From a virus: a stretch of DNA of 48,512 nucleotides. The notes under the pieces were generated by a model. The model was not told the origin of the DNA. It saw only the letters and a program-made list of their open reading frames with translations, and made no database searches. A program made the position numbers and the translations under genes. Positions 1-48,512 of the stretch are shown in pieces. The DNA lies in IMG/VR virus record IMGVR_UViG_3300021168_000006, positions 1 through 48,512 of that record; one strand, 5' to 3'. Each line of letters starts with the position of its first letter. Positions within the stretch are counted from its first letter, which is position 1.

Positions 1-127
1 CGCATTGAATGGCTGTTGCAGCATCGCAGCTTCTTGATCGGCAAACTCGGATTATCTCAATCAAAGAAGCTCGTTGCCGTAATGAAGTATGACGGGCTAA
101 TAGCGAAGTCTACCTATTGGTGCGATT
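1..127. repeat. terminal direct repeat (circular contig overlap), left copy
   Basis: Bases 1-127 are identical to 48386-48512. An exact 127-base end overlap is what a de Bruijn assembler (k=127) leaves when a contig closes on itself, so the molecule is circular or circularly permuted. The window start is then arbitrary, not a physical end. Confidence 0.95.
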
Positions 128-820: not shown

Positions 821-1033
821 ATGAGCTACAAGATCGAGCGAGCGAAAATGATTCTAGCTGTAGGGGGTACGATTAGTGTCATCGCTATTTTGCTGATGCT
901 CTGCGGCTGCGGCCCGAGGCACTATCAAGCGCATCCGAACGGGCCTCCGGTGCCGAGCTATAACAACAAGTGCGACATGGACGGGTGGAGGTATGAGTTC
1001 CCCGGTCATTGCGTGAAGGACAAAGAGCAATGA
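821..1033 (+). CDS. small lipoprotein or membrane protein
   Basis: A 70-residue protein with ribosome site AAGGAGAG ahead of ATG 821. Residues 10-28 are a hydrophobic segment ending in LMLCGC, which fits a lipobox with the second Cys as acylation site. The short polar, Pro-rich remainder would be periplasmic and has two more Cys. It could be a lipoprotein or simply an N-anchored membrane peptide. Its stop overlaps the start of the nuclease gene. Confidence 0.65.
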   Translation: MSYKIERAKMILAVGGTISVIAILLMLCGCGPRHYQAHPNGPPVPSYNNKCDMDGWRYEFPGHCVKDKEQ

Positions 1034-2046
1034 GCGAACCCAAGCCTTTTTCTTTCTATGAGATTCAACCAAACGGCAAGATTCTTTTCTTCGTTGACGC
1101 CAGCTTGCTGAAAAGCTTCTCTCATTGCGAAGCATATTTCTACCTCAAGCATGTCAAAAACATTCGCCAAAAAGGAACAGCGATTACCAAACCCTTCCCG
1201 ATGGCTATAGGCTCTTGGTGGTCTGACGTCATGGAGGCGTTTTACAACTCGCTCCGTGACAAGCGAGAGCTCGGCCTACAAGACATACAAGACATTGCGC
1301 TTACCGCATGGGCTTCAAACGGCTTGGAGGCTTGCGCTTTGGCGGAGCCCGATAAGTTCGCGCAATTCGGGGACATCGCCGGTGCTGTCTTGATGCTCAA
1401 AGACTACTACGAATCTCAATACCTTATCGACAAACACAACTGGAAGGTCGTGTCGGTTGAGGAGGGGTTTGGACTGAAGAAAGAGGTGTTCATTGGAGAA
1501 ACACCAAGGGTCGTTGTCTATTGGGTCGGTCGACCTGATCTTGTTGTTGTCGAGAACGAACGACTTACTCCTGTCGACCACAAAACTGTCTCACGAATCG
1601 ACGGCTTTACAACAAGTCGTTACAAACCATCTACTCAAATGTCTGGGTACACATATTCATGCGAAGTCATCGCAAAATCCCTTGGTTACGGAGTTAGAGT
1701 CGATAGGTGCATCGTTAATATCTGTTCGCGCGCGAGACCTACTGACAAGCCTCGAAGCGGCCAGAAAAGACCTCGCTTTATTCGAGCTTACCCTAACTTC
1801 ACTCGTGAGGAAATCGAGGAGTGGAGACGTAACGTCGTTGGAATCTGCGAGCGGATAGCGCAGAATCTTCGCTCGAATGAATGGACTTGGATGGAGACAT
1901 CCTGCCACAACTTCTACATGCGTCCCTGTGACTACCTAAAGCTTCACAGCGCAACACCATCTTCGCGAGATATCATCCTTGCAGCCGATTTTGCAGAGGG
2001 GCGTCCTTGGAAGCCCTACGAACCTACGAAAGAAGTGGAGGATTGA
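1030..2046 (+). CDS. PD-(D/E)XK superfamily nuclease (RecB/Cas4-like)
   Basis: A 338-residue protein; ATG 1030 overlaps the previous stop. The nuclease core is visible as GRPDL (D170) followed by PVDHKT (D183, K185), the D-x(n)-D-x-K signature of the PD-(D/E)XK fold, then a QMSGY segment typical of the RecB-type helix. An N-terminal SFSHCEAYFYLKHV segment resembles the first conserved helix of Cas4/RecB nucleases. It lies directly upstream of an ATPase and a DUF669-like protein, an order common in phage recombination-replication modules, so a role in DNA end processing is inferred. Confidence 0.8.
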   Translation: MSEPKPFSFYEIQPNGKILFFVDASLLKSFSHCEAYFYLKHVKNIRQKGTAITKPFPMAIGSWWSDVMEAFYNSLRDKRELGLQDIQDIALTAWASNGLEACALAEPDKFAQFGDIAGAVLMLKDYYESQYLIDKHNWKVVSVEEGFGLKKEVFIGETPRVVVYWVGRPDLVVVENERLTPVDHKTVSRIDGFTTSRYKPSTQMSGYTYSCEVIAKSLGYGVRVDRCIVNICSRARPTDKPRSGQKRPRFIRAYPNFTREEIEEWRRNVVGICERIAQNLRSNEWTWMETSCHNFYMRPCDYLKLHSATPSSRDIILAADFAEGRPWKPYEPTKEVED

Positions 2047-2915
2047 TGCCAACAGAAATGCGTATTATGGCCGAAGAGCCGCCAGTAGCAAAGCTTAAAA
2101 TCGCTCTGGTAGGGAAGGAGAAGAACGGCAAGTCGCGTCTTGCCTCAACAGGCCGACCAAACGTCTTGGTGCATGACTTCGACAATCGTGCCGAAGCCTT
2201 GCAGGGCCGAAAGGGTGTCTACGTCATTTCTTACGTTGAACCTCAATGGCCGAAACAGCCCGAAGCGGCTCAGAAGTTCCTGGACAATCTAGCAAAACTT
2301 GAAGATTCGTTGGACCTTCACGACCTTGGATTCAAATGCCCGAAGGGAACACTCGTCGGTACGAACGTGATCGATTCCATCCAAACCTTCGGCAAAGCTT
2401 TTCAGAACTATGCTCTTTACGGTCAAAAAGACATTCGACGCGAAATTACCTTTGGAGGGATGAAAGTGTTCCTTCCAGGAGGTTGGGACGCCTGGAATGC
2501 AGAAATGGTCCCTGTGGAAAACTGCGTTCTGCGTACTTTGGCATTACCAACCGATACCATCATCGTTCTACACGAAACAGCTGAGGAAACCGCCGATTCG
2601 ACCTCTGAAAAGCCACGCTTTTCGGGACGTGTAGGGGTATTCCCTGTACGCTATCAACGACTCATCAAGTATTTTAATGAGCTATGGCGTGTGAAGCTTG
2701 TTCAACAAACCGTCAACCAGAAGCTCGTCTATCTACCGAAGGTATTTCCTTTTCCGAACTACGAATTTGATAGCGCGACGGCGTTGCTCCTCGACCAAGA
2801 GGAAAACCCAAGCATCGTCGAGATGATTGCGAAGCACGAACAACGCTTGAAGTCAAATGGCCTTCTGCCCTCCGAAGGGGCGAAGAAACAACTACCTGCA
2901 ACTGTAAAACTCTAA
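2046..2915 (+). CDS. AAA/RecA-like phage nucleotide-binding ATPase
   Basis: A 289-residue protein; ATG 2046 shares one base with the upstream stop and follows GTGGAGG. Residues 23-30 (GKEKNGKS) form a Walker A loop. VLVHDFDNR soon after and IIVLHET further on fit the Walker B and sensor strands of the RecA-like fold. Phage ATPases of this size between a RecB-like nuclease and a DUF669 protein usually act as single-strand annealing or recombination ATPases; that role is inferred from context. Confidence 0.72.
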   Translation: MPTEMRIMAEEPPVAKLKIALVGKEKNGKSRLASTGRPNVLVHDFDNRAEALQGRKGVYVISYVEPQWPKQPEAAQKFLDNLAKLEDSLDLHDLGFKCPKGTLVGTNVIDSIQTFGKAFQNYALYGQKDIRREITFGGMKVFLPGGWDAWNAEMVPVENCVLRTLALPTDTIIVLHETAEETADSTSEKPRFSGRVGVFPVRYQRLIKYFNELWRVKLVQQTVNQKLVYLPKVFPFPNYEFDSATALLLDQEENPSIVEMIAKHEQRLKSNGLLPSEGAKKQLPATVKL

Positions 2916-2931
2916 AAAGGAGAATCACGAA

Positions 2932-3390
2932 ATGCCGAAGTTGACTGCATCAAAAGAAGAAGTAAAAGGACTACCAGCGATGAGCGAGGGTATGCTAACC
3001 GTTCGACTGGACGGTTTCGAGCCTCGTTTGTCGAAGGACAAAGGTTCGGTTAACCTTCGTCCTGTTCTCAAGGTTATTAACCACGCCGAGTATAACGACC
3101 GGCGTGTGTTCGAAAATCTCAACACGAAGGGGAAGTGGGTCTGGAAAGACTTCTGCCACGCCTTCGGGGTGCCGATGGCCGCGGACGCGGCAGGGGACTT
3201 CGAGTTCCCTGGTGAGTTCGACGGTCCCGAAGACCAGCCGGACAAGTGGCAGTATCGTGGGCCACTTCTCGGACAGCAAGCACAACTCTATGTCATTCAA
3301 TCGGGTGACAACGGAAACAACAACGCGATTAAGTACTATGTCTGCAAAATCGCCGGCTGTGTCGAGAAGCACTCGTCAAACCTGGCGTAG
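2932..3390 (+). CDS. DUF669-like protein, putative ssDNA-binding protein
   Basis: A 152-residue protein with a strong AAAAAGGAG site before ATG 2932. The order LRPVLKVINHAEYNDRRVFENLNTKGKWVWKDF, split by short loops, matches the DUF669-type proteins found beside phage recombination ATPases, which are thought to bind single-stranded DNA. The middle is acidic (FEFPGEFDGPEDQP). The family assignment comes from pattern and position; no catalytic residues are expected. Confidence 0.6.
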   Translation: MPKLTASKEEVKGLPAMSEGMLTVRLDGFEPRLSKDKGSVNLRPVLKVINHAEYNDRRVFENLNTKGKWVWKDFCHAFGVPMAADAAGDFEFPGEFDGPEDQPDKWQYRGPLLGQQAQLYVIQSGDNGNNNAIKYYVCKIAGCVEKHSSNLA

Positions 3391-3552
3391 CAAAAGCTTG
3401 CTCCGGTTGGCCTCTAGCGCATCTAGGCCACATCCCACCGAGAGCAAAGTCGGAGTCTGGTACGGCTGACATTCCGTAGGATTACGCCTCGTCCCTCCGA
3501 TATTACAGTGCGTAAAGACTGACATAGTACGCCAAAATTTTAGGAGTCAATT
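3391..3552 (+). other. intergenic gap with weak hairpin
   Basis: This 162-base gap separates the recombination genes from the next operon segment. TGGCC and CTAG around 3400-3425 are mirrored by CTAGGCCA, giving a bulged hairpin, but no T-run follows, so it is a poor intrinsic terminator. No tRNA or convincing promoter was seen. Confidence 0.35.
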
Positions 3553-3882
3553 ATGTGTGAAGTCTGCAACGACGAAGCTAAAAGCGAAGAAGTAGGAGTC
3601 GCTGCCATTCCGGGAGTTCCATGCTCGATAAGCTGGTGTCGAAGCTGTCTTGAGCATGAAGCTTTTCCTTCGTGGGTGTTCGATCACGACTTTATCTATG
3701 TCGCAGAAGGAAATCTCGAAGGACTCAACGACTGGGCAAAGCAAAGAGTTACATGGGCCGACGGGAAATATATTGGCTTTCTCGAATACATAAAGAGAAT
3801 CACTCCAGAACAAATTCAAACTGAATTACTTAAATATCGAGACGCTGCCGAAGCCGCACAACGGGATTACTATGGAAGCTGA
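3553..3882 (+). CDS. CxxC zinc-ribbon-like hypothetical protein
   Basis: A 109-residue protein with ribosome site TAGGAG before ATG 3553. It starts MCEVCNDE and has a second WCRSC pair near residues 28-32, so two CxxC knuckles could bind one zinc. The acidic C-terminal half is probably helical. Its last 11 bases overlap the methyltransferase gene. Function unknown. Confidence 0.7.
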   Translation: MCEVCNDEAKSEEVGVAAIPGVPCSISWCRSCLEHEAFPSWVFDHDFIYVAEGNLEGLNDWAKQRVTWADGKYIGFLEYIKRITPEQIQTELLKYRDAAEAAQRDYYGS

Positions 3883-5170
3883 ACAGCTGAGCATCGACCA
3901 AGTAATCGTCGGAGACCGCGTTCGAAAGGACTTCGGCAACCTCGACGAGCTTTGTAATTCCATTACCTCGGTAGGGTTGATTCAACCTATTGTAATCACC
4001 CGAGACCTACAGCTCATCGCCGGTGAGCGGCGCTTACGCGCGTTGAAGAAAATAGGCGTCAAGGAGCTTATTCATGGCAAACTCTTTATCTTTAACGACG
4101 AGCAAGACAAGCTCAAACTCCAAGCGATGGAAATCGAAGAGAACGTCAAAAGGAAGGAACTCAGTTGGCAAGAAACAATCCTTGCCAAGAAACGCCTTCT
4201 TGAAGTTATGGTGCAGATACACGGCGTCGCTCGGCCCGGCTATCCTAGCCGAAGCGATCAACTTGGAATCACGAGTGCGGGATTTGGTATCAACAAACTC
4301 GCTGCACTTCTTGGCGAGTCAAACGCCCAAACTTCAAAAGATATCGAGCTTGCTAATCTCATTGAACAGGTCCCTCAGCTACGAGCAGCCGAAACCAAAG
4401 AAGCCGCGCGTAGGCAAGTCTCGCTCGCGATGACGGTCGCGACTGCGACGCAGCAGCAGGCTTTGAACCCTCCGAAGACGGACCAGAAGTGGGAATTATT
4501 CCCTGGAGACTTCGTTAACAATGTTAACAATATCGAACCGGCAAGTGTTGATTTTGTCGTTGTTGACCCCCCATACGGAGAGGACACTCAAGGCATGGGG
4601 CCAAACTCGAAGCAACTTATCGCCAACCCGTTCAACGACAGTTTGGCCTCCACTAGAGATTTATACATTCTCATGGCTAATGCAGCATGGAGAGTTCTTC
4701 GAGAGAATCGCTTTTCGGCATTCTTTTTTGGATTTGCGGTCTATTCCGACCTCGTTACCGCTTTGCAGGCTACAGGATTCCAAGTCGATTTAACACCTTT
4801 GATTTGGGTTAAGAATACCGTCATAAACACCACTCCCTACACCCGCTACGGTCGTTCCTACGAACCGATACTAATCGCTCGCAAAGGCGAGCCTAAGCTA
4901 ATGAGGCCATCGCAGCGTGATGTTATTGCTGTGCAGAACGTTATAACGCGAGGTACTCAAGAACAAAAGTTCTATCAAGCCCAAAAGCCTGTCGAGCTTA
5001 TCGAAAAGCTCATTCTTGACATGTCGCCTCCTGGCTCAACGGTGTGTGATTTCTGCGCTGGTAGTGGGACTACAGGCGTAGCTGCGCTGAAGAATGGACG
5101 ACGTGTTGTTCTTTTCGAGAAAGACGTTGTGGCCTGTAACATAATCAAAGCGAGGCTTGGTGCTCTATGA
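3872..5170 (+). CDS. ParB-like domain fused to N6/N4 DNA methyltransferase
   Basis: A 432-residue two-domain protein. Residues 1-100 are a ParB N-terminal/Srx-like domain (LCNSITSVGLIQPIVI, then AGERRLRALKKIG with GERR at 51-54). The C-terminal part is an amino-methyltransferase with motif IV DPPY at 232-235 and the AdoMet-binding motif DFCAGSGTTG at 393-402; motif IV before motif I marks the beta class. Such fusions are common orphan phage methyltransferases and probably modify adenine N6 or cytosine N4 to evade host restriction. No cognate endonuclease is nearby. A GTTAAC-N3-GTTAAC palindrome lies inside the gene at 4514-4528. Confidence 0.88.
   Translation: MEAEQLSIDQVIVGDRVRKDFGNLDELCNSITSVGLIQPIVITRDLQLIAGERRLRALKKIGVKELIHGKLFIFNDEQDKLKLQAMEIEENVKRKELSWQETILAKKRLLEVMVQIHGVARPGYPSRSDQLGITSAGFGINKLAALLGESNAQTSKDIELANLIEQVPQLRAAETKEAARRQVSLAMTVATATQQQALNPPKTDQKWELFPGDFVNNVNNIEPASVDFVVVDPPYGEDTQGMGPNSKQLIANPFNDSLASTRDLYILMANAAWRVLRENRFSAFFFGFAVYSDLVTALQATGFQVDLTPLIWVKNTVINTTPYTRYGRSYEPILIARKGEPKLMRPSQRDVIAVQNVITRGTQEQKFYQAQKPVELIEKLILDMSPPGSTVCDFCAGSGTTGVAALKNGRRVVLFEKDVVACNIIKARLGAL
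4514..4528. repeat. dispersed palindrome site 1 (GTTAAC-N3-GTTAAC)
   Basis: Two perfect GTTAAC half sites separated by AAT, inside the ParB-methyltransferase gene between its two domains. This is one of nine copies in the genome. Confidence 0.7.
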
Positions 5171-5493
5171 TATATCTTACCACTCCCTATTCGAGCAAGA
5201 ACCCTGTCATAATGGAAGAGCGTTTCGAGAAGGCTTCGGAGATAAACGCACGACTAATGAATCAAGGTCTCGTTGTGTACTCTCCAATAGCTCATTGCCA
5301 CCCTCTTGCAATGAAGTACGGACTTCCAACAAATTGGGAATTCTGGAAACACTTTGACGAGGACTTGATTGCAAGAAGCGAAAAACTTCTCGTTGTGAAG
5401 ATGGAAGGATGGGAGACGAGTGTCGGTGTTCAAGCTGAGATCCAATATGCAAGGTCCATCGGAAAGCCTATCGAGTTTATGGAGCCTTTATGA
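5167..5493 (+). CDS. DUF1937 / nucleoside 2-deoxyribosyltransferase-like protein
   Basis: A 108-residue protein whose ATG overlaps the upstream stop. The opening YLTTPYSS, then VYSPIAHCHPLA, and the late WETSVGVQAEIQYARSIGKP match DUF1937, which shares the nucleoside 2-deoxyribosyltransferase fold. These enzymes exchange bases on deoxynucleosides; a phage copy may adjust nucleotide pools or process nucleosides for modified DNA. The exact substrate cannot be read from the sequence. Confidence 0.7.
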   Translation: MIYLTTPYSSKNPVIMEERFEKASEINARLMNQGLVVYSPIAHCHPLAMKYGLPTNWEFWKHFDEDLIARSEKLLVVKMEGWETSVGVQAEIQYARSIGKPIEFMEPL

Positions 5494-5909
5494 TAACCGT
5501 AAGTATAATCACAATTCCACATCACGAGCAGAGATATGACACTGTTGGTGATTGGACATTCATCCGCGAAACCGGAGCACTTCACATCCGTGTCAGCGAC
5601 CTCAATAACTGGCGCTACGAACTCCTCGTCGGCGTGCACGAACTTGTCGAAGCCTTACTATGCTCACACGCCGGCATCAAACAAGAAATTGTCGACACCT
5701 TTGACTTTAACTACAAAGGCGATGAAGAGCCCGGCGACGACTATAAATGTCCGTACAGCGGACCTCATTGCATCGCAACCGGCGTTGAGCGTGTGCTTGC
5801 AGCGGTGATGGGTGTTTCATGGTCGAAATACGAAAAAACGCTCGACAACCTACCGAAGTGGAAGGAGAAGAATGTCATCCCAAACGACCCAACCTCAATC
5901 GCCGACTGA
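5490..5909 (+). CDS. hypothetical protein with HExxE motif
   Basis: A 139-residue protein with a 4-base overlap to the previous gene. The central helix GVHELVEALLCSH (residues 48-60) holds H50, E51 and E54 and resembles a metal-binding helix, with H60 close by. It is not a proven peptidase, since the classical HExxH is absent. A CPYSGPHC segment follows. Function unknown. Confidence 0.68.
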   Translation: MITVSIITIPHHEQRYDTVGDWTFIRETGALHIRVSDLNNWRYELLVGVHELVEALLCSHAGIKQEIVDTFDFNYKGDEEPGDDYKCPYSGPHCIATGVERVLAAVMGVSWSKYEKTLDNLPKWKEKNVIPNDPTSIAD

Positions 5910-6090
5910 GGGGCTCTTTACCTGTACGATGAAGTGTGCTATTTGCTTGAAGGTTCTCGGAACGCAGAAGCACATTCCTCATAGTCGCTTTAGCGGCGAA
6001 CCCGTTCGTTGGTCGACCATCAAAGCGAACTACATCCCTTGCGTTGAACATCCCGACTACGGCTTCGTAGTAGAATGGAGTCCGGAATGA
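5872..6090 (+). CDS. small zinc-ribbon hypothetical protein
   Basis: A 72-residue protein. ATG 5872 is chosen for its AAGGAGAAG site; a longer in-frame extension lacks one. CTMKCAICLK carries a CxxC, and a later CVEHPDYG may complete a metal site. It overlaps the previous gene by 38 bases. Not recognised. Confidence 0.62.
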   Translation: MSSQTTQPQSPTEGLFTCTMKCAICLKVLGTQKHIPHSRFSGEPVRWSTIKANYIPCVEHPDYGFVVEWSPE

Positions 6091-6305
6091 GTCTCTTTAA
6101 CGAGACAGGCCATGCGTCAATCGATGATAGAAACACCGAAGCTATCCGTCTTATCGACGAACTTGCGACTCAAACCGAGATGATGCAATCTCATGAACGT
6201 AAGTTCGTCGAGGACATGAACGACCGTCAAACTCGTAACGAACTTCGTTGCTCCGGCAAACAGCTTTTCTGGCTCCGTGATTTGTATCAGAAATACTGCC
6301 TCTAA
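6087..6305 (+). CDS. hypothetical protein, 72 aa
   Basis: ATG 6087 overlaps the previous stop and follows TGGAG. The charged helical product ends in SGKQLFWLRDLYQKYCL, a pattern seen in short phage replication-associated proteins. Its stop codon shares its last base with the start of the polymerase gene, so it is likely co-translated. Function unknown. Confidence 0.65.
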   Translation: MSLFNETGHASIDDRNTEAIRLIDELATQTEMMQSHERKFVEDMNDRQTRNELRCSGKQLFWLRDLYQKYCL

Positions 6306-9016
6306 TGGGTCCAAAAACCTTAGCTCTTAAAGCGCTCTGCGCTTCGCTTGGCCGAAAGTACGTCGGCTTTCGCGGCTCTCCGACAGCGCCGATTTGGATT
6401 GTAGGCGAGGCTCCAGGTGCGGATGAGGATCAGGCAGGAGTGCCGTTTGTTGGTTCGTCAGGCCGTGAGCTTGACAGGATGTTGGCTGAGGCGGGGATAC
6501 CGTCGGGGTTGTGCTGTATGGTCAATCCTTATAAAATACGCCCACCAGACAATGATATATCGAGAATCGAGGAGGTGGGAATTGTCAAAGGAATCTTTGA
6601 GGAGGCTTTTTATGAGGAACTCGTTGAATACAAACCAAGCTTCATCGTACCTGTCGGAGGAACGCCTCTCTCAATTATCTGCCCGACTACCATCGACAAT
6701 CGAGATCACGAGTCTAAGATATCCAAATGGCGAGGGAGTCTGCTTAATTCGGAACAGTCCAGCATTAGATGGCCGCACTACGTCATTCCTAATTTTCACC
6801 CTGCCTACATCCTGCGAGAGTGGTCTGATAGAGATGTCGCAGTCTTTATTTTGCGACGGGTCAAAGAAGAATACGACTACTTCGTCGCCAACGGAAAACA
6901 CCAACCCCTCCCCGAGCGAGAGCTAATCGCAGACCCCTCCTTCGGAGAGGCAAAGGAGTATCTCAATGAATGTCTTAGCTGCGCTACACCCACTTCAGTG
7001 GATATTGAACTTTTGGCTCGTCGAGTTCCCATATGTATTAGCTTCTCTTTTAGTCGTCGTTCTGCTATCAGCGTGTCTCTGCTTGATGGGGAGGTATCTA
7101 ATCTACGAGTGCTTTACCGACTCATGGATAGAATCCTTCGAGAAAAGAGAATTGTTGGTCAAAATTGGACGACTTTTGATGCTAATTGGATGGAAGCTAT
7201 TGGGTTTAGCGACGGTGTGCATCTATGCGATGACACTCTTGTTCGCCATCATGTTTTGCATCCAGAAATGAGTCATAAGCTCGATTTTCAGGTCATGCAA
7301 TATACACGTCAGCCCTACTACAAAGACGAAGGCCGTGGTTGGGTAATGCGCGACGGCATGATAAAGCTCAAGAGGTATAACTGCCTCGACGCCTGCTGCA
7401 CGCTCGAAGTATTCGAAGAACAGAAGCATGAATTTGACGACAACCCTTCCATTAGACGATTTTACACCGACTACGAAATGCCGCTCGCCAGAGCTTTTCA
7501 TTCGGTTGACAAAAGAGGGATTAAGACCTCAGCTGAGGGTCTCCGAGACTTTCGTAAGGATATTGTACGCGAATTGGGCGACAGGTGCGTATCCATATCT
7601 CAAGCGTTGGGAGGACGTCCTGTCGTTTATTCAACAGAGATGGCGGGTAATTTGGCTCGACAGCTCAAAGTCGATAGTAAAGGAATACTCAACATTGCTT
7701 CGGTCCCACAGCTAAAGGAGGTTTTGAAGAATGAGCTTAAAATCAAACTTAAGACAGACAGGAAAACAGGTAAAGAATCGACCGGAGAGGAGTCGCTCCA
7801 AGAAGCCTTCGCCGCTACAGGCAACCCTGTCCTTAAAGACACACTCCGGGTACGGGAACTTAACAAGGTACTCGGAACTAACGTCGACGCCAGACTTGGC
7901 TCTGGAGTGTTGTATTCCTGTTACAGCGTCACGGGAACTGTCACTGGTCGTCGAGCATCTCGAAAGAATTTCCTCGGCCTCGGCTCAAACGGGCAGAACC
8001 AAACGAAGCATAGCGACCTCGGTGACCGGCTCCAACAGGTGTTCGTTGCTAGACCCGGTCATATTTTTATTGCTTGCGATCAAGCATCGGCAGAGGAATG
8101 GGTCGTCTGGGGCATTATTGCCGATGTTTCGGGCGTTGACAGAGGTATTCGAGAACTTCAAGACTCTATCAGTTCCGGGATTTCACGACATGCACGCCTC
8201 GCAAGTCAAATTTTTGGACTCCCTCTCGAAAAAACGAACGACAAAGAATGCTTAGAGTACTTCCTCGGCAAGAAGGTTCGACACGCCGGGAACTACGACA
8301 TGCGTGAGAACACGATGGCCGCACAGCTCGCTGCTGCGGGGAAGCCGGCGCCGGTGTCGTTCTGTAAAGCAATCCTTGACAAGTTTCATCAAGTAGAACC
8401 TGAAATACGTGGAGTCTTTCATAAGTACGTCGAACATGAGCTTCGTACCAAACGATTGCTAAAAACGCCACTAGGCCGTGAACGCATCTTTCACGGCCTA
8501 AGACCTTACGGTGATAACTCCAAGATATACCGAGAGGGTTATGCCTACATCCCTCAATCGACGATTGGCGACAACAACGGCTTCGCCATCCTACATTGCG
8601 AGCGGAACGCTCCGGGCCACGTCTTGCAGGATGGGCACGACTCGATACTACTCGAAGTAGCCGACGACTTTCTAACCGTCGTACTCGGTATCAAGCTACT
8701 CGAACAAGCATACGACCGAGTCCTTCGCTTCCCGAACGGCTACGAAGTACGGATTCCCATCGACCTTAGAATCGGCTATTCCATAAGGGGGCTCAAGAAG
8801 TGCCCAGGAAGCTCAAACATCCTTGGCTCGAAGAATACGTACGACTCTTTAGCGCCACAACGGACAGCCCGCCTCGATATCACTTCTGGACGGGAGCTAC
8901 AGCAATCGCAGCCTCTATCAAGCGTAATGTATGGATTGGGGGAATTGCCAGAATCGTCGAAGAGTGGAAGCTCTTCCCCAATATCTACACCGTCCTCGTT
9001 GGGCGGCCTGGAATAG
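6305..9016 (+). CDS. uracil-DNA glycosylase family 4 - 3'-5' exonuclease - family A DNA polymerase fusion
   Basis: A 903-residue replicative polymerase with three domains. Residues 1-200 are a family 4/SPO1-type UDG: GEAPGADED at 34-42 with VPFVGSSG after it, and NFHPAYIL with H165-P166. A proofreading DnaQ-like exonuclease follows (D233-I-E235; NWTTFDANW; YNCLDA). The PolA part has motif A CDQASAEEW (D592), a motif B region RHAGNYDMRENTMA, and motif C QDGHDSI (H778-D779). The Cys cluster of 4Fe-4S UDGs is largely missing, so glycosylase activity is uncertain. About 72 C-terminal residues after IGYSIRG are Ser/Pro-rich and lie in a second frame over the next gene. Confidence 0.9.
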   Translation: MGPKTLALKALCASLGRKYVGFRGSPTAPIWIVGEAPGADEDQAGVPFVGSSGRELDRMLAEAGIPSGLCCMVNPYKIRPPDNDISRIEEVGIVKGIFEEAFYEELVEYKPSFIVPVGGTPLSIICPTTIDNRDHESKISKWRGSLLNSEQSSIRWPHYVIPNFHPAYILREWSDRDVAVFILRRVKEEYDYFVANGKHQPLPERELIADPSFGEAKEYLNECLSCATPTSVDIELLARRVPICISFSFSRRSAISVSLLDGEVSNLRVLYRLMDRILREKRIVGQNWTTFDANWMEAIGFSDGVHLCDDTLVRHHVLHPEMSHKLDFQVMQYTRQPYYKDEGRGWVMRDGMIKLKRYNCLDACCTLEVFEEQKHEFDDNPSIRRFYTDYEMPLARAFHSVDKRGIKTSAEGLRDFRKDIVRELGDRCVSISQALGGRPVVYSTEMAGNLARQLKVDSKGILNIASVPQLKEVLKNELKIKLKTDRKTGKESTGEESLQEAFAATGNPVLKDTLRVRELNKVLGTNVDARLGSGVLYSCYSVTGTVTGRRASRKNFLGLGSNGQNQTKHSDLGDRLQQVFVARPGHIFIACDQASAEEWVVWGIIADVSGVDRGIRELQDSISSGISRHARLASQIFGLPLEKTNDKECLEYFLGKKVRHAGNYDMRENTMAAQLAAAGKPAPVSFCKAILDKFHQVEPEIRGVFHKYVEHELRTKRLLKTPLGRERIFHGLRPYGDNSKIYREGYAYIPQSTIGDNNGFAILHCERNAPGHVLQDGHDSILLEVADDFLTVVLGIKLLEQAYDRVLRFPNGYEVRIPIDLRIGYSIRGLKKCPGSSNILGSKNTYDSLAPQRTARLDITSGRELQQSQPLSSVMYGLGELPESSKSGSSSPISTPSSLGGLE

Positions 9017-10005
9017 GCAAAGGCGTTGCGATGAATCCTGCTATCTCGCTTTTGAAGAAAGCAGGGACGGCTAACATATTGTCCGACCGCGTTACGATGG
9101 AGTATGTATTGGAGAAGCTCTCTAAAGGGTTTCCAAGGATGTCGCCTGGTGTGAATGGAGCGGGAGGGATGAAGCTCGGCTTGGAATCGGCTGCTATGCT
9201 CGTATCTACCGAGCTCAGTGTTTTTATTACAGCATCTCAGTTCACTATTACGTGCTTGTCGGACCTTTGGGACAGTAAAGAAGGGATATATCAATATGGC
9301 ACTCGTGGCAAGGGTGAGTGGAATATTAATGAGCCTATTGTGTCTCTACTCGGCGGTTCCGCCCAAAATTGGCTTGTTAAGTCTGTCCCTGCTGATGCTG
9401 TCGGGGGCGGTTTTACACGGCGCGTCAATTTTGTCCTCGCTACCAAAAAAGAAACAGTCCCCGACACAACCGGACGCCCACTCATCGACAAAGACGACCT
9501 TGTAGAGGATTTGCGTTACATGGCTCAAATACGAGGGCAGTTCTCTTTAACGAACGATGCTCTCAAACTGCTCAAGATATACCACGACAGTTGCGACCCG
9601 AACGACTTTGACGACGAAGCGTCCGCTGTCTACAAAACGAGCAAATGGGCGAACGCTGGTAAGTTGGCTGAGATTATAGCGATGTCGAGAAGCGACAACC
9701 TTGTTATCGAAGAAGAGGACTTACAAACAGCTATCGACAAGGTCGAGGATGTAGCGAAGGATTTGAAGATAGTCTTTCGTGCGGTAGGTGAGTCGGACTT
9801 GGCGTCGGCGTCGGACAGGGTTATACGCTTCTTGGAGACTCGTGGGTTCGCGTCTCGCGGCGATATACTCGCCTTTAACTGGCGTCATTTTACCTCAAGC
9901 GAGCTTGATGTTATCATAGCGACTTTCCGCGAAAGCGGGATGATTGGTGAGAAGAATGTCGGTAACAAAACACTCTACTATTGGAAGGATTCGGTGAAGC
10001 CATGA
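8800..10005 (+). CDS. replicative primase-helicase-type ATPase (DUF3987-like)
   Basis: A 401-residue protein starting at GTG 8800 behind AAGGGGG at 8784-8790. Residues 68-75 (GRPGIGKG) are a P-loop within a RecA-like ATPase, with the upstream HFWTGATAIAASI segment seen in DUF3987/primase-associated helicases. SLLGGSAQNWL and FTRRVNFVLA fit the core, and the C-terminal 60 residues look like a winged helix (SRGDILAFNWRHFTSSEL). It overlaps the polymerase tail by 217 bases in another frame. A role as fork helicase is inferred from its position. Confidence 0.75.
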   Translation: MPRKLKHPWLEEYVRLFSATTDSPPRYHFWTGATAIAASIKRNVWIGGIARIVEEWKLFPNIYTVLVGRPGIGKGVAMNPAISLLKKAGTANILSDRVTMEYVLEKLSKGFPRMSPGVNGAGGMKLGLESAAMLVSTELSVFITASQFTITCLSDLWDSKEGIYQYGTRGKGEWNINEPIVSLLGGSAQNWLVKSVPADAVGGGFTRRVNFVLATKKETVPDTTGRPLIDKDDLVEDLRYMAQIRGQFSLTNDALKLLKIYHDSCDPNDFDDEASAVYKTSKWANAGKLAEIIAMSRSDNLVIEEEDLQTAIDKVEDVAKDLKIVFRAVGESDLASASDRVIRFLETRGFASRGDILAFNWRHFTSSELDVIIATFRESGMIGEKNVGNKTLYYWKDSVKP

Positions 10006-42345: not shown

Positions 42346-42891
42346 ATGAAGACGTTCCTAGCAACAAAGGTTCATTATCACGAAAACGAGCGTGATAAGG
42401 ACAGCAACCTCAAGACGTACATCACCTCCGAGGATGCGTTCAACAAAGCGCTCAAAAAGGCCACTGAAGCCAAAGAGCCTCTACCCGAACTGATTGTCTC
42501 GCAAAGCGCGCAGTACAGCGTGGCCGAGACGGTCGGTGAAGCGCTTCGCTTGAGCGGCGTGACGGTCGACGTTTCGCCAATCGACGACTACATCAAGGAC
42601 AACAACATCGATGTGACGTTGTTCCTTGACACCTACAACAACACGGCTGCGATTCTCAAGCAGCACAATGAGTTCGCAGACACCATTCGCGACAGTACCT
42701 TCACCGCTCAGGAAGGCGCAATCGACCTCGCCCACGCAGTCGCACAGAAGAGCGAGCGCTCGAAGATGACGGTGGAAGACAAGTTCCTCAAGGAACTGTC
42801 GAAGCAGGGTATGACGGTCACCGCAGAGCAGCTACGCGCAGCGTTGGCGAGCATCTCGGCTGCTTCCGCATCGGCTTCGGCGTCGGCTTAA
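42346..42891 (+). CDS. hypothetical protein with Ala/Ser tail, strongly controlled single-gene unit
   Basis: 181 residues; AAAAGGAG precedes ATG 42346. Acidic and helical (EDAFNKALKKATEAKEPLPELIVSQSAQYSVAETVGEAL), ending in a simple Ala-Ser repeat. It has the strongest promoter, a perfect operator-like palindrome, a long structured leader and a strong terminator, so it is a monocistronic, tightly regulated and probably abundant product. Function unknown. Confidence 0.72.
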   Translation: MKTFLATKVHYHENERDKDSNLKTYITSEDAFNKALKKATEAKEPLPELIVSQSAQYSVAETVGEALRLSGVTVDVSPIDDYIKDNNIDVTLFLDTYNNTAAILKQHNEFADTIRDSTFTAQEGAIDLAHAVAQKSERSKMTVEDKFLKELSKQGMTVTAEQLRAALASISAASASASASA

Positions 42892-42955: not shown

Positions 42956-42986
42956 GTGGGTGTGAATTGCGTCACACCCACTTTTT
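42956..42986 (+). terminator. intrinsic terminator
   Basis: GTGGGTGTGA and TCACACCCAC form a perfect 10-bp stem with a six-base loop, followed by TTTTT at 42982-42986. It ends the 42346 transcript. Confidence 0.9.
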
Positions 42987-42999
42987 ATCTCTGTCTTTT

Positions 43000-43099
43000 T
43001 ATAGCTACGCTCTGTCATCTGAGAAGGTCTGTACGACGACGAAGTCGCAGAGCCAACGACCCTGGTCTAACAGCTCTTGCGAAGCAGAGCGTAGCTATA
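43000..43099 (+). ncRNA. 100-base structured leader/RNA closed by a 15-bp stem
   Basis: TATAGCTACGCTCTG (43000-43014) is the exact inverse of 43085-43099; the 70-base loop has further pairing (CGAC/GTCG). It ends next to the AAGGAGG of the 43113 gene. Perfect 15-bp complementarity in a gap is unlikely by chance, so it is a candidate RNA element or DNA recombination/binding site. Confidence 0.55.
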
Positions 43100-43112
43100 A
43101 GGAGGCAGAAAA

Positions 43113-43343
43113 ATGCCAAAAACAAAAAAGTGGTCGAAAGAACGTCGTCGTATCTTTGAAGCAAAACGAGAAGCAAAGAAAGCCGCGGAGAGGAATCCAG
43201 TCCCTCCAATCGAGCAGCCGACGGACAACCTCGTCGCTCCCAGACCGCAAAGCCCGTTCATGCGTCTGTCGAACGAGCTAGCTCGCTTTCACTCTGACCT
43301 TCAAATAAAGCTCCATGACCTTGCCGATGTCTTTAGGTTCTGA
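43113..43343 (+). CDS. small basic hypothetical protein
   Basis: 76 residues behind AAGGAGG. Lys/Arg-rich helix (WSKERRRIFEAKREAKKAAERN), a Pro-rich linker and a short amphipathic tail. Likely binds nucleic acid or a partner; two bases before the J-domain gene. Confidence 0.65.
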   Translation: MPKTKKWSKERRRIFEAKREAKKAAERNPVPPIEQPTDNLVAPRPQSPFMRLSNELARFHSDLQIKLHDLADVFRF

Positions 43344-43345
43344 GC

Positions 43346-43828
43346 ATGGCCATCAAAGCCCGTATCTTCTGGGATACCAACGCTCAAGCCTACGTTGTAT
43401 CGATGGCCTTTAACGAAAAGCTCGTCGATACTCTAAAGGCTTTGATACCGAGCGGCGACCGCTCTTGGGACCCTCAGGCGAAGATGTGGTACGTCAAGGA
43501 ACCCTACGGAGAGGCTCTTCGGAGCCTCTTTGTAACGGGGTTTGGTATTCATGCCGTGTCGTTTACGAGCAAGACCGTAGCCGAGCAAGCTCAACAAAAC
43601 ACTCAGCAACGGACTTCGTCGCAGGGAGCGATGCTCAATACCTCAGCCGGCTCTACAGAAGACGCGATGGTCGCCTTCTTCATGCTTCTAAGCTACGACG
43701 CAGCGAAGGCTGCATACCGCAGAGCGGCAATGGACCTGCATCCTGACAAACAGTCGGGCGACGGTACAAAGATGTCGAAGCTCAACGATTTGTGGGCTCG
43801 GTTGGAGAAGGAGTATTTTAAGCGATGA
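43346..43828 (+). CDS. J-domain (DnaJ-like) protein with N-terminal HARP/SNF2-associated-like part
   Basis: 160 residues. Residues 110-160 form a J-domain: AAKAAYRRAAMDLHPDKQSG with HPD at 132-134, then KMSKLNDLWARLEKEY. The N-terminal part has RSWDPQAKMWYVKEPYGEALRSL, seen in small phage proteins and in HARP-type DNA-helicase accessory domains. J-domains stimulate Hsp70 ATPase, so it could recruit host DnaK to phage complexes. It lies directly before the VWA and FtsK genes. Confidence 0.78.
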   Translation: MAIKARIFWDTNAQAYVVSMAFNEKLVDTLKALIPSGDRSWDPQAKMWYVKEPYGEALRSLFVTGFGIHAVSFTSKTVAEQAQQNTQQRTSSQGAMLNTSAGSTEDAMVAFFMLLSYDAAKAAYRRAAMDLHPDKQSGDGTKMSKLNDLWARLEKEYFKR

Positions 43829-44073
43829 GTATCTTTGTCAAAATCGCAGACAAATCGCGATGGTGCTCCGCGGCTCTAGAATTTGCTGACGAAAGAGTCG
43901 TTCCTGGAACTACCGTCGAAATCGACCCAAGCTCCATGAAAGTTTTTAAGGACGAGCAGAATAAAGAATATCGCTCCTATTTGTTGGTAGGAGATAGCCT
44001 TGTTTGGCTTCATGAAGTAGAAGGTTTTAATGTAAGTCGTCTTTGCGAACACGTACTTGAAATAGGAGATTAA
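43825..44073 (+). CDS. hypothetical protein, 82 aa
   Basis: Overlaps the J-domain gene by four bases. Mixed alpha/beta (IFVKIADKSRWCSAALEFADERVVPGTTVEIDPS). Unrecognised; tightly coupled to the module. Confidence 0.62.
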   Translation: MSIFVKIADKSRWCSAALEFADERVVPGTTVEIDPSSMKVFKDEQNKEYRSYLLVGDSLVWLHEVEGFNVSRLCEHVLEIGD

Positions 44074-44088
44074 AAAGGAGAAAACGCT

Positions 44089-44865
44089 ATGAACGACAAA
44101 ATAGTACCGTCCAGCGGTCCGCCGACTGGACTATCCCTAACGAAAGGTAAGCTCAAATCAACGAGCACTCCCTTTCAGGCTCGGGTCAACCAAGCGAAAG
44201 CTTCGCAGCCAGACGCTACAGCAATGCCGAACCGTCTCTGCTTAATGCTTGACCGCTCGTCGTCGATGGCTTCGGTAGCGGATTACAAAGACCGTAGCGC
44301 GAGCAAAACGAAGATAGACCTGCTTCGTGAGGCTATTGATAACTTTGTTAACAGATGTGATTTCAACAACACGTCGCTTGCGGTCGAGACGTTTCCCCCG
44401 CAGCTTGAGCTTGCTTTGACGAGCGTTGGCGTGATGATTACCTCAAGCGTCAGCGGCCTGAGCGCAAGCGGCAACACTCCGATGAAAGCGTGTGTCGAGC
44501 GTTGCTTGGAGAAGATACCTATGACACGCGGTATCATCGTAAGCGACGGCGAAGCAACCGACTGGTACGACGCCGTTTACAACTTCGACGATGCTGAGTC
44601 TCCTGAGAGACATCCTGTCGACAACATCTTGTCTAAATACAAACAAGCCGAAATACCAATCGACTGTGTCCACATCGGAGACAGCTCGTCGGGTGAGGAA
44701 CGGCTTCGGCGTATCGCCAAGGAGACGGGCGGTATTTACCTTAAGTTCACCGACGTCAGCGCGTTTGCGAATAGCTTTGGCTTCTTGACACCAGGCTATC
44801 GTGCTCAGCTTACGAATGGCTCTGTAAGCGCGGAGCAGCTTGGGGCGAAGGAGGTGTCGCGATGA
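44089..44865 (+). CDS. VWA-domain protein
   Basis: 258 residues; AAAAAGGAGAAAA precedes ATG 44089. After a disordered start, the VWA metal-ion site is clear: LMLDRSSSM (D55, S57, S59), T130 in GNTPM, and D153 in VSDGEATD; IDCVHIGD and FTDVSAFANSF finish the Rossmann-like fold. VWA proteins act as metal-dependent adaptors, often paired with ATPases. Gene order before the translocase suggests partnership. A copy of the palindrome lies inside at 44338. Confidence 0.8.
   Translation: MNDKIVPSSGPPTGLSLTKGKLKSTSTPFQARVNQAKASQPDATAMPNRLCLMLDRSSSMASVADYKDRSASKTKIDLLREAIDNFVNRCDFNNTSLAVETFPPQLELALTSVGVMITSSVSGLSASGNTPMKACVERCLEKIPMTRGIIVSDGEATDWYDAVYNFDDAESPERHPVDNILSKYKQAEIPIDCVHIGDSSSGEERLRRIAKETGGIYLKFTDVSAFANSFGFLTPGYRAQLTNGSVSAEQLGAKEVSR
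44338..44352. repeat. dispersed palindrome site 8
   Basis: GATAAC, TTT, GTTAAC, followed by AG, inside the VWA gene. Confidence 0.55.
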
Positions 44866-44990
44866 TAGATGACCTCCTTCGTCCCTGCGAAGATTCGAAG
44901 TGCGATGAAATCGGGGAGTGCGTTTGTCCAAAATGCGGACAATGCTATTGCGAAAAACATTATGACGAACACGACTGCAAATCAAACTGA
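44862..44990 (+). CDS. AN1-type-like small zinc finger
   Basis: 42 residues; ATG 44862 overlaps the VWA stop. Cys-rich (C9, C14, C20, C22, C25, C28, C30) with CYCEKHYDEHDC, close to the AN1 C-terminal pattern (C-x2-H-x3-H-x-C). Its 3' end lies over the first bases of the translocase gene. A similar finger occurs in the 47542 protein. Function unknown. Confidence 0.65.
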   Translation: MIDDLLRPCEDSKCDEIGECVCPKCGQCYCEKHYDEHDCKSN

Positions 44991-46107
44991 GGAACAACGT
45001 GCGGTCGTCCTTGTGCTCGCACACAAGCTGACACAGCTTGGCCTCTCCGCTACATTCGTCGACCCAATAAGCGTCGGCCCTATCGTCAGCGTGTACCGAT
45101 TCCAACCTCAAGGCTCGACCAAGGTCTCGCACCTCGAAGGACTGAGCCAAGACTTCGCGGTGACCCTAGGCGCTGAGGATGTAATGGTGAAGAGGATGCC
45201 TGGCGAGTCAGCCGTCGGCGTGTTTGTGCCGAACAAAGTACGCCAGTGGGTCAAGTGGTATAACCACTGTACTATCGACCCTACGAAGTACAAGATACCT
45301 CTGCTCCTTGGTATCGACTATATGGGCAAGCTTGTCGTCGAAGACCTTACGTTGATGCCTCATCTGCTCATTGCCGGCTCGACGGGTGGAGGTAAATCTA
45401 CTCTGCTTAACAGCATCATCGGCGGTGTTATACTGAACTATGGCAAAGACGACGTTGAGCTTGTTATGTCCGACACCAAGGGAGTGGAGTTCACTCAGTT
45501 CGAACGTGCCGAGAACCTTCGCAGCCTCATCGCTACGAGCGTTGCTATGACCATAGAGCGTTTCGACGAGCTTACAGCTGAAATGGAAAGGAGACTCAAA
45601 ACCTTTGGCTCGACATCAACCCGTAACATCCTTGAATTCAATTCAACCCGACAAGGCTCGAAAGCTCGCCTCCCATACGTTCTTGTTGTTATCGACGAGC
45701 TCGCAGATTTGCTTAGCGACCGTCGTCGAGTCCCAGACCCGAACGACCCAGAAGGGAATCGAACTGTTACTCTTGGCTCGCTTACGTCGCGAAAGCTGGC
45801 GTACATCGCTCAAAAGGCTCGGGCTACTGGAATACATGTCATCGCGGCGACTCAGCGGCCAAGCGTTAAACTGCTTGAAGGAGATATCAAAGCGAACTTC
45901 CCTGCTCGGCTTGCCTTCAGGCTACCGAGTGAAGCAGATAGCCGTACAGTATTGGGTTGTGGAGGGGCAGAGCATCTACTTTCCAGAGGCGATATGCTCT
46001 TCATCAACCCAAACAAGCCGGGTTTGCAGCGAGTTCATGCTCCACTCGCTACGGCACAAGACATTCAAGGAGCTATTGAGTTTGCAGCGCAAAGGAGCAA
46101 AGCATGA
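44962..46107 (+). CDS. FtsK/SpoIIIE-type DNA translocase (alpha-beta motor only)
   Basis: 381 residues from ATG 44962; 31 more residues from ATG 44869 would also be in frame. The alpha domain is typical (GPIVSVYRFQPQGSTKV; VAVTLGAEDVMVKRMPGES type region). The RecA-like motor has Walker A GSTGGGKS (139-146), Walker B VVIDELADL (242-250), and IAATQRPSVKLLEGDIKANFPARLAFR. No membrane segment and no gamma winged helix are present. This motor moves double-stranded DNA. A terminase is also encoded, so this is an additional, unusual DNA pump. Confidence 0.85.
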   Translation: MTNTTANQTEEQRAVVLVLAHKLTQLGLSATFVDPISVGPIVSVYRFQPQGSTKVSHLEGLSQDFAVTLGAEDVMVKRMPGESAVGVFVPNKVRQWVKWYNHCTIDPTKYKIPLLLGIDYMGKLVVEDLTLMPHLLIAGSTGGGKSTLLNSIIGGVILNYGKDDVELVMSDTKGVEFTQFERAENLRSLIATSVAMTIERFDELTAEMERRLKTFGSTSTRNILEFNSTRQGSKARLPYVLVVIDELADLLSDRRRVPDPNDPEGNRTVTLGSLTSRKLAYIAQKARATGIHVIAATQRPSVKLLEGDIKANFPARLAFRLPSEADSRTVLGCGGAEHLLSRGDMLFINPNKPGLQRVHAPLATAQDIQGAIEFAAQRSKA

Positions 46108-46202
46108 AGCTCTTACTCTATTTCTTCGTCGGAGTGGGACGTTTCTTCGCGAGAGTCTTCAAAGAAGTAATCAAAGACATGGTAGAGGAGGGTCGTAAAT
46201 GA
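46104..46202 (+). CDS. small amphipathic/membrane peptide
   Basis: 32 residues from ATG 46104, overlapping the translocase stop and led by AAAGGAG. A hydrophobic start (LLLYFFVGVGRFFARVF) and charged end suggest a membrane-bound peptide that could anchor the translocase, which lacks its own membrane part. Confidence 0.58.
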   Translation: MKLLLYFFVGVGRFFARVFKEVIKDMVEEGRK

Positions 46203-46762
46203 GTGGAGATAAAAGAACGGTATCAACAGATGCACTAGAAACGCTCGGCACGATTATCGATGCGAGAGCGGGAAGGGATGCGATTCATCTCGCGGTCGAA
46301 CCGGTGATAGCAGGCTGTCTACTTCGTCCTGGTCAGGACGTTGGACTGTCGAATGGAAAGGCTGTGCATATTCTTGAGCACAATACCTTCACCAAGGCCG
46401 TCGGCATCGTAGACCCTTTCCTCAAAAAACCAGTACAGCCAGGCGAGCGTTTCTGGTTGGTTGTGTATCCACGACAAATCACCTCGCTGCGACACGTATG
46501 GACACATCCTGCGTTCGAGGAAGCCAATACTCCAATCTCCGCCCCAGACTCGAAGAGGTGGCTAGAAAAGTTCTGTGACGAACGTTCTCTTGACTATGAT
46601 GAGACAATCGACGCTGCCCTGCATTCAAACGACGGCGAAGATGTTTGCTTTGGCAACGACATCGACTGTGACCGAAGCATCCCTGTAGAGTTCTGGCGTC
46701 ACATTGAAGCCGTAACCGGCGAGAGACCCCCAAGAGCACTCTACTTTCGCTGTGCTTGCTGA
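46199..46762 (+). CDS. hypothetical protein, 187 aa
   Basis: ATG 46199 overlaps the peptide stop, with GAGGAGGG upstream. Residues 1-105 look like a beta-rich domain (AGRDAIHLAVEPVIAGCLLRPGQDVGL, GIVDPFLKKPVQPGERFWLVVYPRQ); residues 120-175 are helical and acidic. It ends FRCAC. Family not named; coupling suggests it belongs to the translocase module. Confidence 0.65.
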   Translation: MSGDKRTVSTDALETLGTIIDARAGRDAIHLAVEPVIAGCLLRPGQDVGLSNGKAVHILEHNTFTKAVGIVDPFLKKPVQPGERFWLVVYPRQITSLRHVWTHPAFEEANTPISAPDSKRWLEKFCDERSLDYDETIDAALHSNDGEDVCFGNDIDCDRSIPVEFWRHIEAVTGERPPRALYFRCAC

Positions 46763-46832: not shown

Positions 46833-46861
46833 TTGACAAGTTAATAAGTGCGTGGTACACT
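46833..46861 (+). promoter_or_regulatory. sigma70-like promoter with extended -10
   Basis: TTGACA (46833-46838), 17-base spacer ending TGG, TACACT (46856-46861). Predicted transcription start near 46868, only a few bases before the GTG at 46871, so the message may be leaderless. Confidence 0.7.
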
Positions 46862-46870
46862 GTTTGAGTC

Positions 46871-47026
46871 GTGCCTACACCCCGACAGAACTACACGACC
46901 ATCAGCTTTGAGCTTCGTCGTGATTTAGCGGCTCGGCTTCGCAAGATACTCCCTAAGTACGGAGAGGTAAGCAAGAAGCTCAGACAGCTTGTTCAGGAGT
47001 TTGTTAGGCGAGAGGAAACAAAGTGA
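46871..47026 (+). CDS. ribbon-helix-helix (CopG/Arc-like) regulator
   Basis: 51 residues from GTG 46871. YTTISFELRRDLAARL is the ribbon strand and first helix; KYGEVSKKLRQLVQEFVRR is the turn and second helix of an RHH fold. Such dimers bind palindromic DNA. Because several operator-like palindromes occur here, this is the leading candidate for the protein that reads them. Confidence 0.72.
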   Translation: MPTPRQNYTTISFELRRDLAARLRKILPKYGEVSKKLRQLVQEFVRREETK

Positions 47027-47541: not shown

Positions 47542-48186
47542 ATGTCAAACGAAACACCTCACGAACAAAACGGCCTGCCGTCTCAAGAAGACCTCGACGC
47601 GATGGCCGAGGAGCAGCGAGCTGCTGACGCTACTGTTAACTTTAGTAACGAAAACGTCAGCGGTGTCTGCATCACCTGTGGTCGCGTTAGCCTTCGTATC
47701 TGTACCCACTGTGGTCAGGAATACTGCGCTCAGCATTATTGCATCACCCACGAGATGTCAACCGAACGCGTCGCTATTATCGACGACGATGGTACTGAAC
47801 ACCGTGGACAGCGCGTTAAACTCATAGGCGAAGGCTGGCCCAACCATCTCCTCCTTATCAAAGACCTCTCCGACGAAGAGCTTGACTTCCGTATTGGTGA
47901 CCTTCAAAAAGCCCTCCAACAAGCCATCCGCACCCAGGACTACACTCAAATAAGCCTCGCTGCACATGAGTATGAAAAGGGCTACCGACAGCACAGTCGC
48001 TACGTCGCTGCGATGAAGAGGCGCGAGAAGCTTCAGCAAGGCACGCTTCGCTTGAACAACAAGAAACACAGAATGACTTCGGCTGGAGTGTCGATACCTC
48101 CAGACATCGCTGCGTTGATGAAGATAGGCAATATGAGCTATGAAGATGCTGTCAAGATGAAGGCGTTGCTCGGGAAGAAAGCATAA
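47542..48186 (+). CDS. AN1-like zinc-finger protein with helical C-terminus
   Basis: 214 residues from ATG 47542. Residues 40-70 hold CITCGRVSLRICTHCGQEYCAQHYCITHE, an AN1/B-box-like finger spread over several Cys and His, related to the 44862 finger. The rest is helical (DEELDFRIGDLQKALQQAIRTQDYTQISLAAHEYEKGYRQ, in pieces) and basic. Palindrome site 9 lies inside at 47635. Function unknown. Confidence 0.68.
   Translation: MSNETPHEQNGLPSQEDLDAMAEEQRAADATVNFSNENVSGVCITCGRVSLRICTHCGQEYCAQHYCITHEMSTERVAIIDDDGTEHRGQRVKLIGEGWPNHLLLIKDLSDEELDFRIGDLQKALQQAIRTQDYTQISLAAHEYEKGYRQHSRYVAAMKRREKLQQGTLRLNNKKHRMTSAGVSIPPDIAALMKIGNMSYEDAVKMKALLGKKA
47635..47649. repeat. dispersed palindrome site 9
   Basis: GTTAAC, TTT, AGTAAC, preceded by ACT, inside the 47542 gene. 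Confidence 0.55.
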
Positions 48187-48352: not shown

Positions 48353-48512
48353 GTGAGCAGGGATAAACTTTCGACGTTGGCGCAGCGCATTGAATGGCTG
48401 TTGCAGCATCGCAGCTTCTTGATCGGCAAACTCGGATTATCTCAATCAAAGAAGCTCGTTGCCGTAATGAAGTATGACGGGCTAATAGCGAAGTCTACCT
48501 ATTGGTGCGATT
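48353..48512 (+). CDS. hypothetical protein, 5' part (gene continues at window base 1-210)
   Basis: GTG 48353 follows GGGAGGA at 48341-48347. The frame is open to the window end and continues without shift at base 128 of the window, once the duplicated 127 bases are merged. See the 1-210 entry for the product. Confidence 0.75.
   Translation, partial: MSRDKLSTLAQRIEWLLQHRSFLIGKLGLSQSKKLVAVMKYDGLIAKSTYWCD
48386..48512. repeat. terminal direct repeat (circular contig overlap), right copy
   Basis: This is the exact copy of bases 1-127. The gene starting at 48353 reads through it and continues at the window start. The non-redundant genome length is 48,385 bp. Confidence 0.95.

Follow-up and report, generated by a model that had tools for sequence, protein, structure and literature searches.

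Gene pairs of an ATPase and a VWA protein have been described in several groups of viruses. In N4-like phages, gp24 (an AAA ATPase) and gp25 (vWFA) form a core pair among the middle genes, the function of which is not known (PMC4193335, PMC2784036). A role in assembly was proposed for MoxR-vWA pairs found in jumbo phages and the Acidianus two-tailed virus, and DnaJ proteins occur in the same jumbo group (PMC7824862). Phage proteins of the FtsK type are known as well, an example being the PHROG_1358 FtsK of AP-20-A, a lytic podovirus of Sinorhizobium with a genome of ~49 kb (PMC13299392). Here, we analyzed a viral DNA of 48,512 bases (IMG/VR record IMGVR_UViG_3300021168_000006, its whole length being referred to as the window), in which one operon encodes a J-domain protein, a VWA protein and a soluble FtsK-type motor in this order. 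While ATPase-VWA pairs and phage FtsK are familiar, this set of three is undescribed in the literature searched, as the earlier note on this DNA had suspected.

With the N4-like pair, which is core to a podovirus group, the triad has in common the pairing of an ATPase gene and a VWA gene, but gp24 belongs to the AAA superfamily and not to FtsK, and no J protein is mentioned there (PMC4193335, PMC2784036). The MoxR-vWA pairs likewise place a VWA cochaperone beside an ATPase; however, MoxR is missing here, and the vWA of the jumbo phages carries a metallopeptidase fusion, assembly being its proposed role, whereas the present genes lie in a replication setting (PMC7824862). AP-20-A carries the same PHROG_1358 type of FtsK, but its paper mentions neither a VWA nor a J protein (PMC13299392), and its TerL belongs to PHROG 2 instead of PHROG_38. 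The alpha domain and the RecA-like motor with Walker A, Walker B and other motor residues are shared with cellular FtsK/SpoIIIE and with the phage proteins of PHROG_1358 and PHROG_3551. In contrast to FtsK/SpoIIIE translocases, the protein in the window has no membrane domain and no gamma winged helix, and it is paired with J and VWA genes. Among solved structures, the J domain matched the T antigens of polyomaviruses best in sequence, better than cellular DnaJ. Large T unites a J domain with a hexameric DNA motor, an SF3 helicase, in one polypeptide, whereas the J protein and the predicted FtsK pump are encoded here by separate genes with the VWA gene between them. We regard this as a resemblance only and do not claim a common origin.

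Conservation of the J-VWA-FtsK triad

Co-occurrence was scanned with VWA, J, FtsK and TerL as anchors, followed by profiles of each gene; all relatives are metagenomic contigs. In IMG/VR, the ordered, same-strand arrangement J-VWA-FtsK was found with 47 distinct sequences of FtsK and as many distinct VWA genes, a few of these sequences coming from the same or near-identical contigs. Because the order recurs in 47 distinct sequences, it is not due to chance. The earlier note had considered that relatives might carry these genes scattered or not at all; instead, order and strand were kept throughout this set. All ten close relatives found via FtsK (10/10) had the three genes in order, and the FtsK identity to the window drops to ~34% among triad carriers. 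The triad was also present in 6/6 TerL-anchored contigs that extend far enough to cover the locus (the sixth, L060, being the same contig as L012), and in every member of the phage family that could be checked.

The triad is part of a fixed block, g181-J-VWA-FtsK-g214-PD(D/E)XK nuclease-Sak4-g152-polymerase. All VWA-anchored contigs with enough sequence showed TerL on the opposite strand, then g181, J, VWA, FtsK, usually g214, and the PD(D/E)XK nuclease, Sak4 and g152, with the polymerase closing the block where the contig extends that far. The earlier note had described a tightly coupled module of six genes and had expected the VWA protein to be paired with an ATPase. The tight operon and its J, VWA and FtsK genes were borne out, as was the pairing. 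The Cys finger, the 32-residue peptide and the 187-residue gene were not conserved in relatives, and the operon begins with a further gene upstream (43113) and includes an 82-residue gene. On these comparisons, the real unit is J-VWA-FtsK and not the six genes.

FtsK alone does not imply the other two genes, since 16 distinct FtsKs of other viruses have neither J nor VWA nearby. A 71-kb phage (L140/G023) without a detectable TerL relationship lacks J, and 0.7 kb upstream of its FtsK, which groups among the triad FtsKs in the tree, it encodes a DUF2786-VWA protein. This single case suggests that VWA and FtsK are the tighter pair. In the FtsK tree, a quick tree with moderate supports, the triad is spread over two clades and the non-triad FtsKs L042, L043 and L116 stand beside one of them, so that the history of FtsK does not appear to be one of clean single inheritance. 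Within isolate collections, 250 phage records matched FtsK, and a tblastn search of 50,697 records of isolate phages gave 0 matches to the VWA and J proteins. Around the FtsK gene of the isolate phage Courthouse, most products are hypothetical and none is annotated as VWA or DnaJ.

The three proteins

By sequence, the FtsK identity of the motor is certain. Pfam assigned the FtsK_SpoIIIE motor with E=1.3e-30 and the FtsK alpha domain (PF17854) with E=9.3e-14, and the protein matched Pseudomonas aeruginosa FtsK at E 1e-74 and PHROG_1358 at E 4e-70. Residues G139, T141, G144, K145, D245 and E246 were invariant across 76 sequences. The longest open reading frame begins at 44869, while relatives favour the ATG at 44962. 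Merely ~10-40 residues precede the alpha domain and a membrane anchor is absent, in agreement with the soluble motor of the earlier note. No match to a gamma winged helix was found, and the protein stops with the motor domain. In FtsK, the gamma winged helix serves KOPS reading and XerD activation. A tyrosine recombinase was absent from 22/23 records searched and present in one.

Between the window and its nearest relative L004, FtsK residues 150-300 are only 55-63% identical, while the flanks reach ~90% and J and VWA 93-95%. Because this segment diverges while J and VWA do not, part of the motor has been swapped between phages without its J and VWA partners. The exchange is allelic (45400-45860), with DTK-GVEF and DIKEGVEF types in otherwise near-identical modules. 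The ratios of nonsynonymous to synonymous substitution (dN/dS) for the same pair were 0.04 for J, 0.08 for VWA and 0.22 for FtsK.

The J protein of the window alone matched DnaJ with E 0.00047, which is under the Pfam gathering score. At family level, DnaJ was matched by 14/16 members (best 5e-6), and the family profile matched J domains among solved structures at 5e-7. The HPD motif was invariant in 50/50 J proteins with few other invariant columns, and the predicted structure places J-type helices (117-131 and 140-156) on either side of it. A fold search returned XPB and the J domain of Sis1, matches that are weak by themselves. The protein ends after the J domain, without the G/F region and the C-terminal substrate domains of class A/B Hsp40. 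Since these phages carry no Hsp70 (0/23 records checked), the partner of the J protein is most likely host DnaK; recruitment of Hsp70 by the J protein had been anticipated in the earlier note.

The J protein's N-terminal part resembled the SMARCAL1 HARP domain and the XPB damage-recognition domain (DRD) weakly but concordantly in sequence and fold. HARP was matched in 7/16 members (best 1.7e-4), the family profile matched the SMARCAL1 HARP structure 4o66 at E 0.046, and the fold match to XPB had a probability of 0.92 but an E of 0.13. Both HARP and the damage-recognition domain of XPB bind DNA in a structure-specific manner. These weak matches suggest a HARP/XPB-DRD-like domain, which is joined here to a J domain and not to a helicase, and its DNA binding is a prediction.

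The VWA protein of the window alone also stayed under the Pfam gathering scores (VWA_2 0.0039, VWA_3 0.0025), while VWA_2 was matched by 9/9 relatives scanned (best 9e-6). The VWA and FtsK domains noticed in the letters alone are thus both confirmed by profile searches, VWA at family level. The residues of the metal site (MIDAS; D55, S57, S59, T130 and D153) were invariant in 52/52 VWA proteins, and the model shows a Rossmann-like VWA fold (pLDDT 82) with 166 PDB matches at E<=0.001. A profile sequence search of the PDB gave nothing useful, and no relatives in sequenced bacteria or archaea were confirmed by profile in the genome collection. VWA cochaperones usually have MoxR as their ATPase partner. 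As MoxR (PF07726) was encoded in 0/23 records with positive controls, the VWA protein most likely works with FtsK.

Proposed function and alternatives

We tentatively consider the triad a DNA-bound protein-remodelling machine of the replication and recombination stage of the phage, a reading held with slightly more doubt than belief. The physical interaction of the three proteins, the DNA binding of J, the substrates, the timing and the order of events in this model are what we infer. The J protein would dock on viral DNA via its HARP/XPB-like domain, probably at branched DNA or at junctions of single and double strands, and its J domain would load host DnaK onto proteins at that site. A soluble FtsK hexamer would track along duplex DNA and strip, push or feed substrates, while the VWA protein would use its metal site to couple the motor to the co-chaperone or to bind their shared client. 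As a net effect, complexes on replicating, concatemeric phage DNA would be cleared or rebuilt before nuclease, Sak4 and polymerase act. This model appears the simplest given the HARP signal, the T-antigen-like J domain and the location: the module invariably has PD(D/E)XK nuclease, Sak4, g152 and polymerase as neighbours, comes ahead of nuclease, Sak4 and polymerase, and is transcribed in the opposite direction to the structural genes. The fixed gene order, the invariant HPD, MIDAS and Walker residues, the dN/dS values, the lack of MoxR and Hsp70 and the VWA-FtsK neighbourhood in L140 also speak for it. A narrower version is doubtful: a three-protein, DNA-guided chaperone machine, core to an undescribed phage family, would consist of a J co-chaperone with a branched-DNA-binding domain of its own, a VWA coupler that depends on metal, and an FtsK pump in soluble form, and would be the phage analogue of the J domain and hexameric helicase united in large T.

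Several points weigh against such a machine. Contact among J, VWA and FtsK is deduced indirectly, and the HARP assignment relies on weak matches. In some relatives, the members of the triad lie up to 2.1 kb apart, with small genes shuffled between them, and the partial exchange of FtsK between the window and L004 took place without its VWA and J partners. Finally, synteny of the whole block is equally expected from a conserved phage backbone. Three independent core genes might therefore simply be kept adjacent by that backbone, as the flanking core genes also hold their order and the 16 FtsKs of other viruses do without J or VWA. We consider this unlikely, as accessory genes between the triad members turn over constantly while the triad stays, and the unrelated phage L140 again has a VWA gene next to its FtsK, which belongs to the same clade.

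A chaperone set for virion assembly, in which VWA and J act in the folding or assembly of structural proteins with FtsK as the recruited ATPase, would agree with the role proposed for MoxR-vWA and DnaJ proteins in the jumbo-phage survey (PMC7824862) and with the GroES-like Cpn10 also encoded by the phage. It is nevertheless quite unlikely, given that MoxR is missing from the 23 records, that the module sits with replication genes and runs in the opposite direction to the structural genes, and that FtsK with its alpha and motor domains is a predicted pump for double-stranded DNA. A duplex pump would suit an aid to concatemer handling or packaging, with FtsK disentangling concatemers or delivering them to the terminase and VWA and J as accessories, a role suggested for the PHROG_1358 FtsK of AP-20-A (PMC13299392). 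Its probability is similarly low: TerL and portal are encoded in the structural block, which is transcribed the other way, the motor lacks the gamma domain by which direction would be read, and all but one of the 23 records are without a tyrosine recombinase.

The lowest probability was given to counter-defence or host takeover, in which FtsK, helped by J and VWA, would strip defence complexes off phage DNA or act on the host chromosome. PHROGs class FtsK-like proteins as 'moron, host takeover', and the allelic mosaic in the middle of FtsK would be in line with it. Morons are patchy, however, whereas the triad is core in all family members that could be checked, and PADLOC hits were limited to the generic FtsK/HerA motor. 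On the latter ground, a defence system was rejected. The suggestions of the earlier note that the module guards phage DNA or attacks the host chromosome found no backing, the conserved neighbours being genes of replication and recombination, not of defence or lysogeny.

Operon, leader and accessory genes

The features of the locus are summarized in Table 1.

Table 1. Positions of the operon genes, their neighbours and the comparison locus in L140.
Feature	Position	Strand	Remarks
Replication/recombination block: PD(D/E)XK nuclease, Sak4, g152, ParB-methyltransferase, UDG-PolA, primase	1009..10005	+	Joins 3' side of the module across the 127-bp terminal repeat
g181, function unassigned	42346..42891	+	Always 5' of J; strong terminator between g181 and J; constant neighbour
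Leader hairpin, long stem	42990..43109	+	Between terminator and first operon gene; fold z -6.6
First operon reading frame, 76 residues, basic	43113..43343	+	Counterpart in closest relative only; accessory
J protein, 160 residues	43346..43828	+	Putative HARP/XPB-DRD-like N-terminal domain (~1-75), linker, minimal J domain, HPD at 132-134
82-residue reading frame between J and VWA	43825..44073	+	Weak relatives in L002, L005, L006 only; accessory
VWA protein, 258 residues	44089..44865	+	Complete MIDAS: D55-x-S57-x-S59, T130, D153; conserved N-terminal peptide PFQxRVxQAK
42-residue Cys/His finger	44862..44990	+	Like finger of g214; accessory, not conserved
Soluble FtsK/SpoIIIE-type motor, 381 residues	44962..46107	+	Alpha and beta domains only; Walker A GSTGGGKST, Walker B VVIDE
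32-residue hydrophobic/amphipathic peptide	46104..46202	+	Otherwise only in L004; accessory
187-residue protein, PHROG_11912	46199..46762	+	Absent from close family relatives; accessory cargo
g214, zinc-finger protein	47542..48186	+	Invariant EGWP motif; constant downstream neighbour
DUF2786-VWA fusion protein of L140	L140:7910-9253		Just 5' of FtsK

The operon spans 43113-46762 on the plus strand, and its genes are tightly packed with gaps of +2, -4, +15, -4, -29, -4 and -4. It looks like a single operon because a strong terminator (42956-42981), which closes g181, precedes it and a sigma-70-like promoter (46833-46861) starts the next gene downstream. Perhaps g181 is therefore not co-transcribed with J. 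Behind this promoter lies a short ribbon-helix-helix-like protein (46871-47026), which was conserved in 8/15 sampled relatives and is a possible regulator.

The 3' arm of the leader hairpin holds AGGAGG, the ribosome-binding site of the first operon gene, which the long stem would occlude according to the fold. The hairpin reached a fold z of -8.8 in L004. Among eight close relatives (window included), 9/16 pairs of the stem were changed on both sides, a count biased towards the structure as the arms were picked by complementarity. Among close relatives, the hairpin is conserved as a structure and not as a sequence. A simple stem scan found 16/49 regions beating their own shuffles, and the hairpin was not evident in many distant members. 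No Rfam family matched the hairpin.

Among the accessory genes, the 32-residue peptide was found in 1/10 close relatives (the nearest one, L004) and the 187-residue gene in 0/10. Relatives of the 187-residue protein occur in N4-like, jumbo, Sinorhizobium, Caulobacter and other large phages, its N-terminal part being strongly conserved. In the ten close relatives, the 42-residue finger had no counterpart other than the finger at the N-terminus of g214, which is encoded downstream, and its 'AN1' label in the earlier note had no Pfam support.

Genome context

The first and last 127 bases of the window (1-127 and 48386-48512) form an exact direct repeat. Because of these identical ends, the genome is very likely complete and circularly assembled with ~48.4 kb. 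The minus strand carries TerL (PHROG_38), an SU10-type portal, the major head protein and other structural genes at 11-37 kb, and the plus strand an exonuclease, Sak4, a ParB-methyltransferase, a UDG-polymerase A and a primase. The family A DNA polymerase has a fused uracil-DNA-glycosylase (UDG) domain (6305-9016), and a ParB-like nuclease domain is fused to the DNA methyltransferase (3872-5170). The latter fusion was not detected in those triad phages checked that are more distantly related. A GroES/Cpn10-like protein (9981-10310, E 9e-12) shows that a cochaperonin gene is also present in the phage, and a protein with a GARS-type ATP-grasp domain (24576-26231) lies within the structural gene block. 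Neither tRNAs nor any Rfam family were found in the window.

Conclusion

FtsK, VWA and J proteins of phages have mostly been annotated vaguely and without function. Taken together as a triad, these three annotations become one testable hypothesis, namely that host Hsp70 may be brought onto phage DNA. Furthermore, the triad marks a sizeable family of uncultured phages without an isolate.

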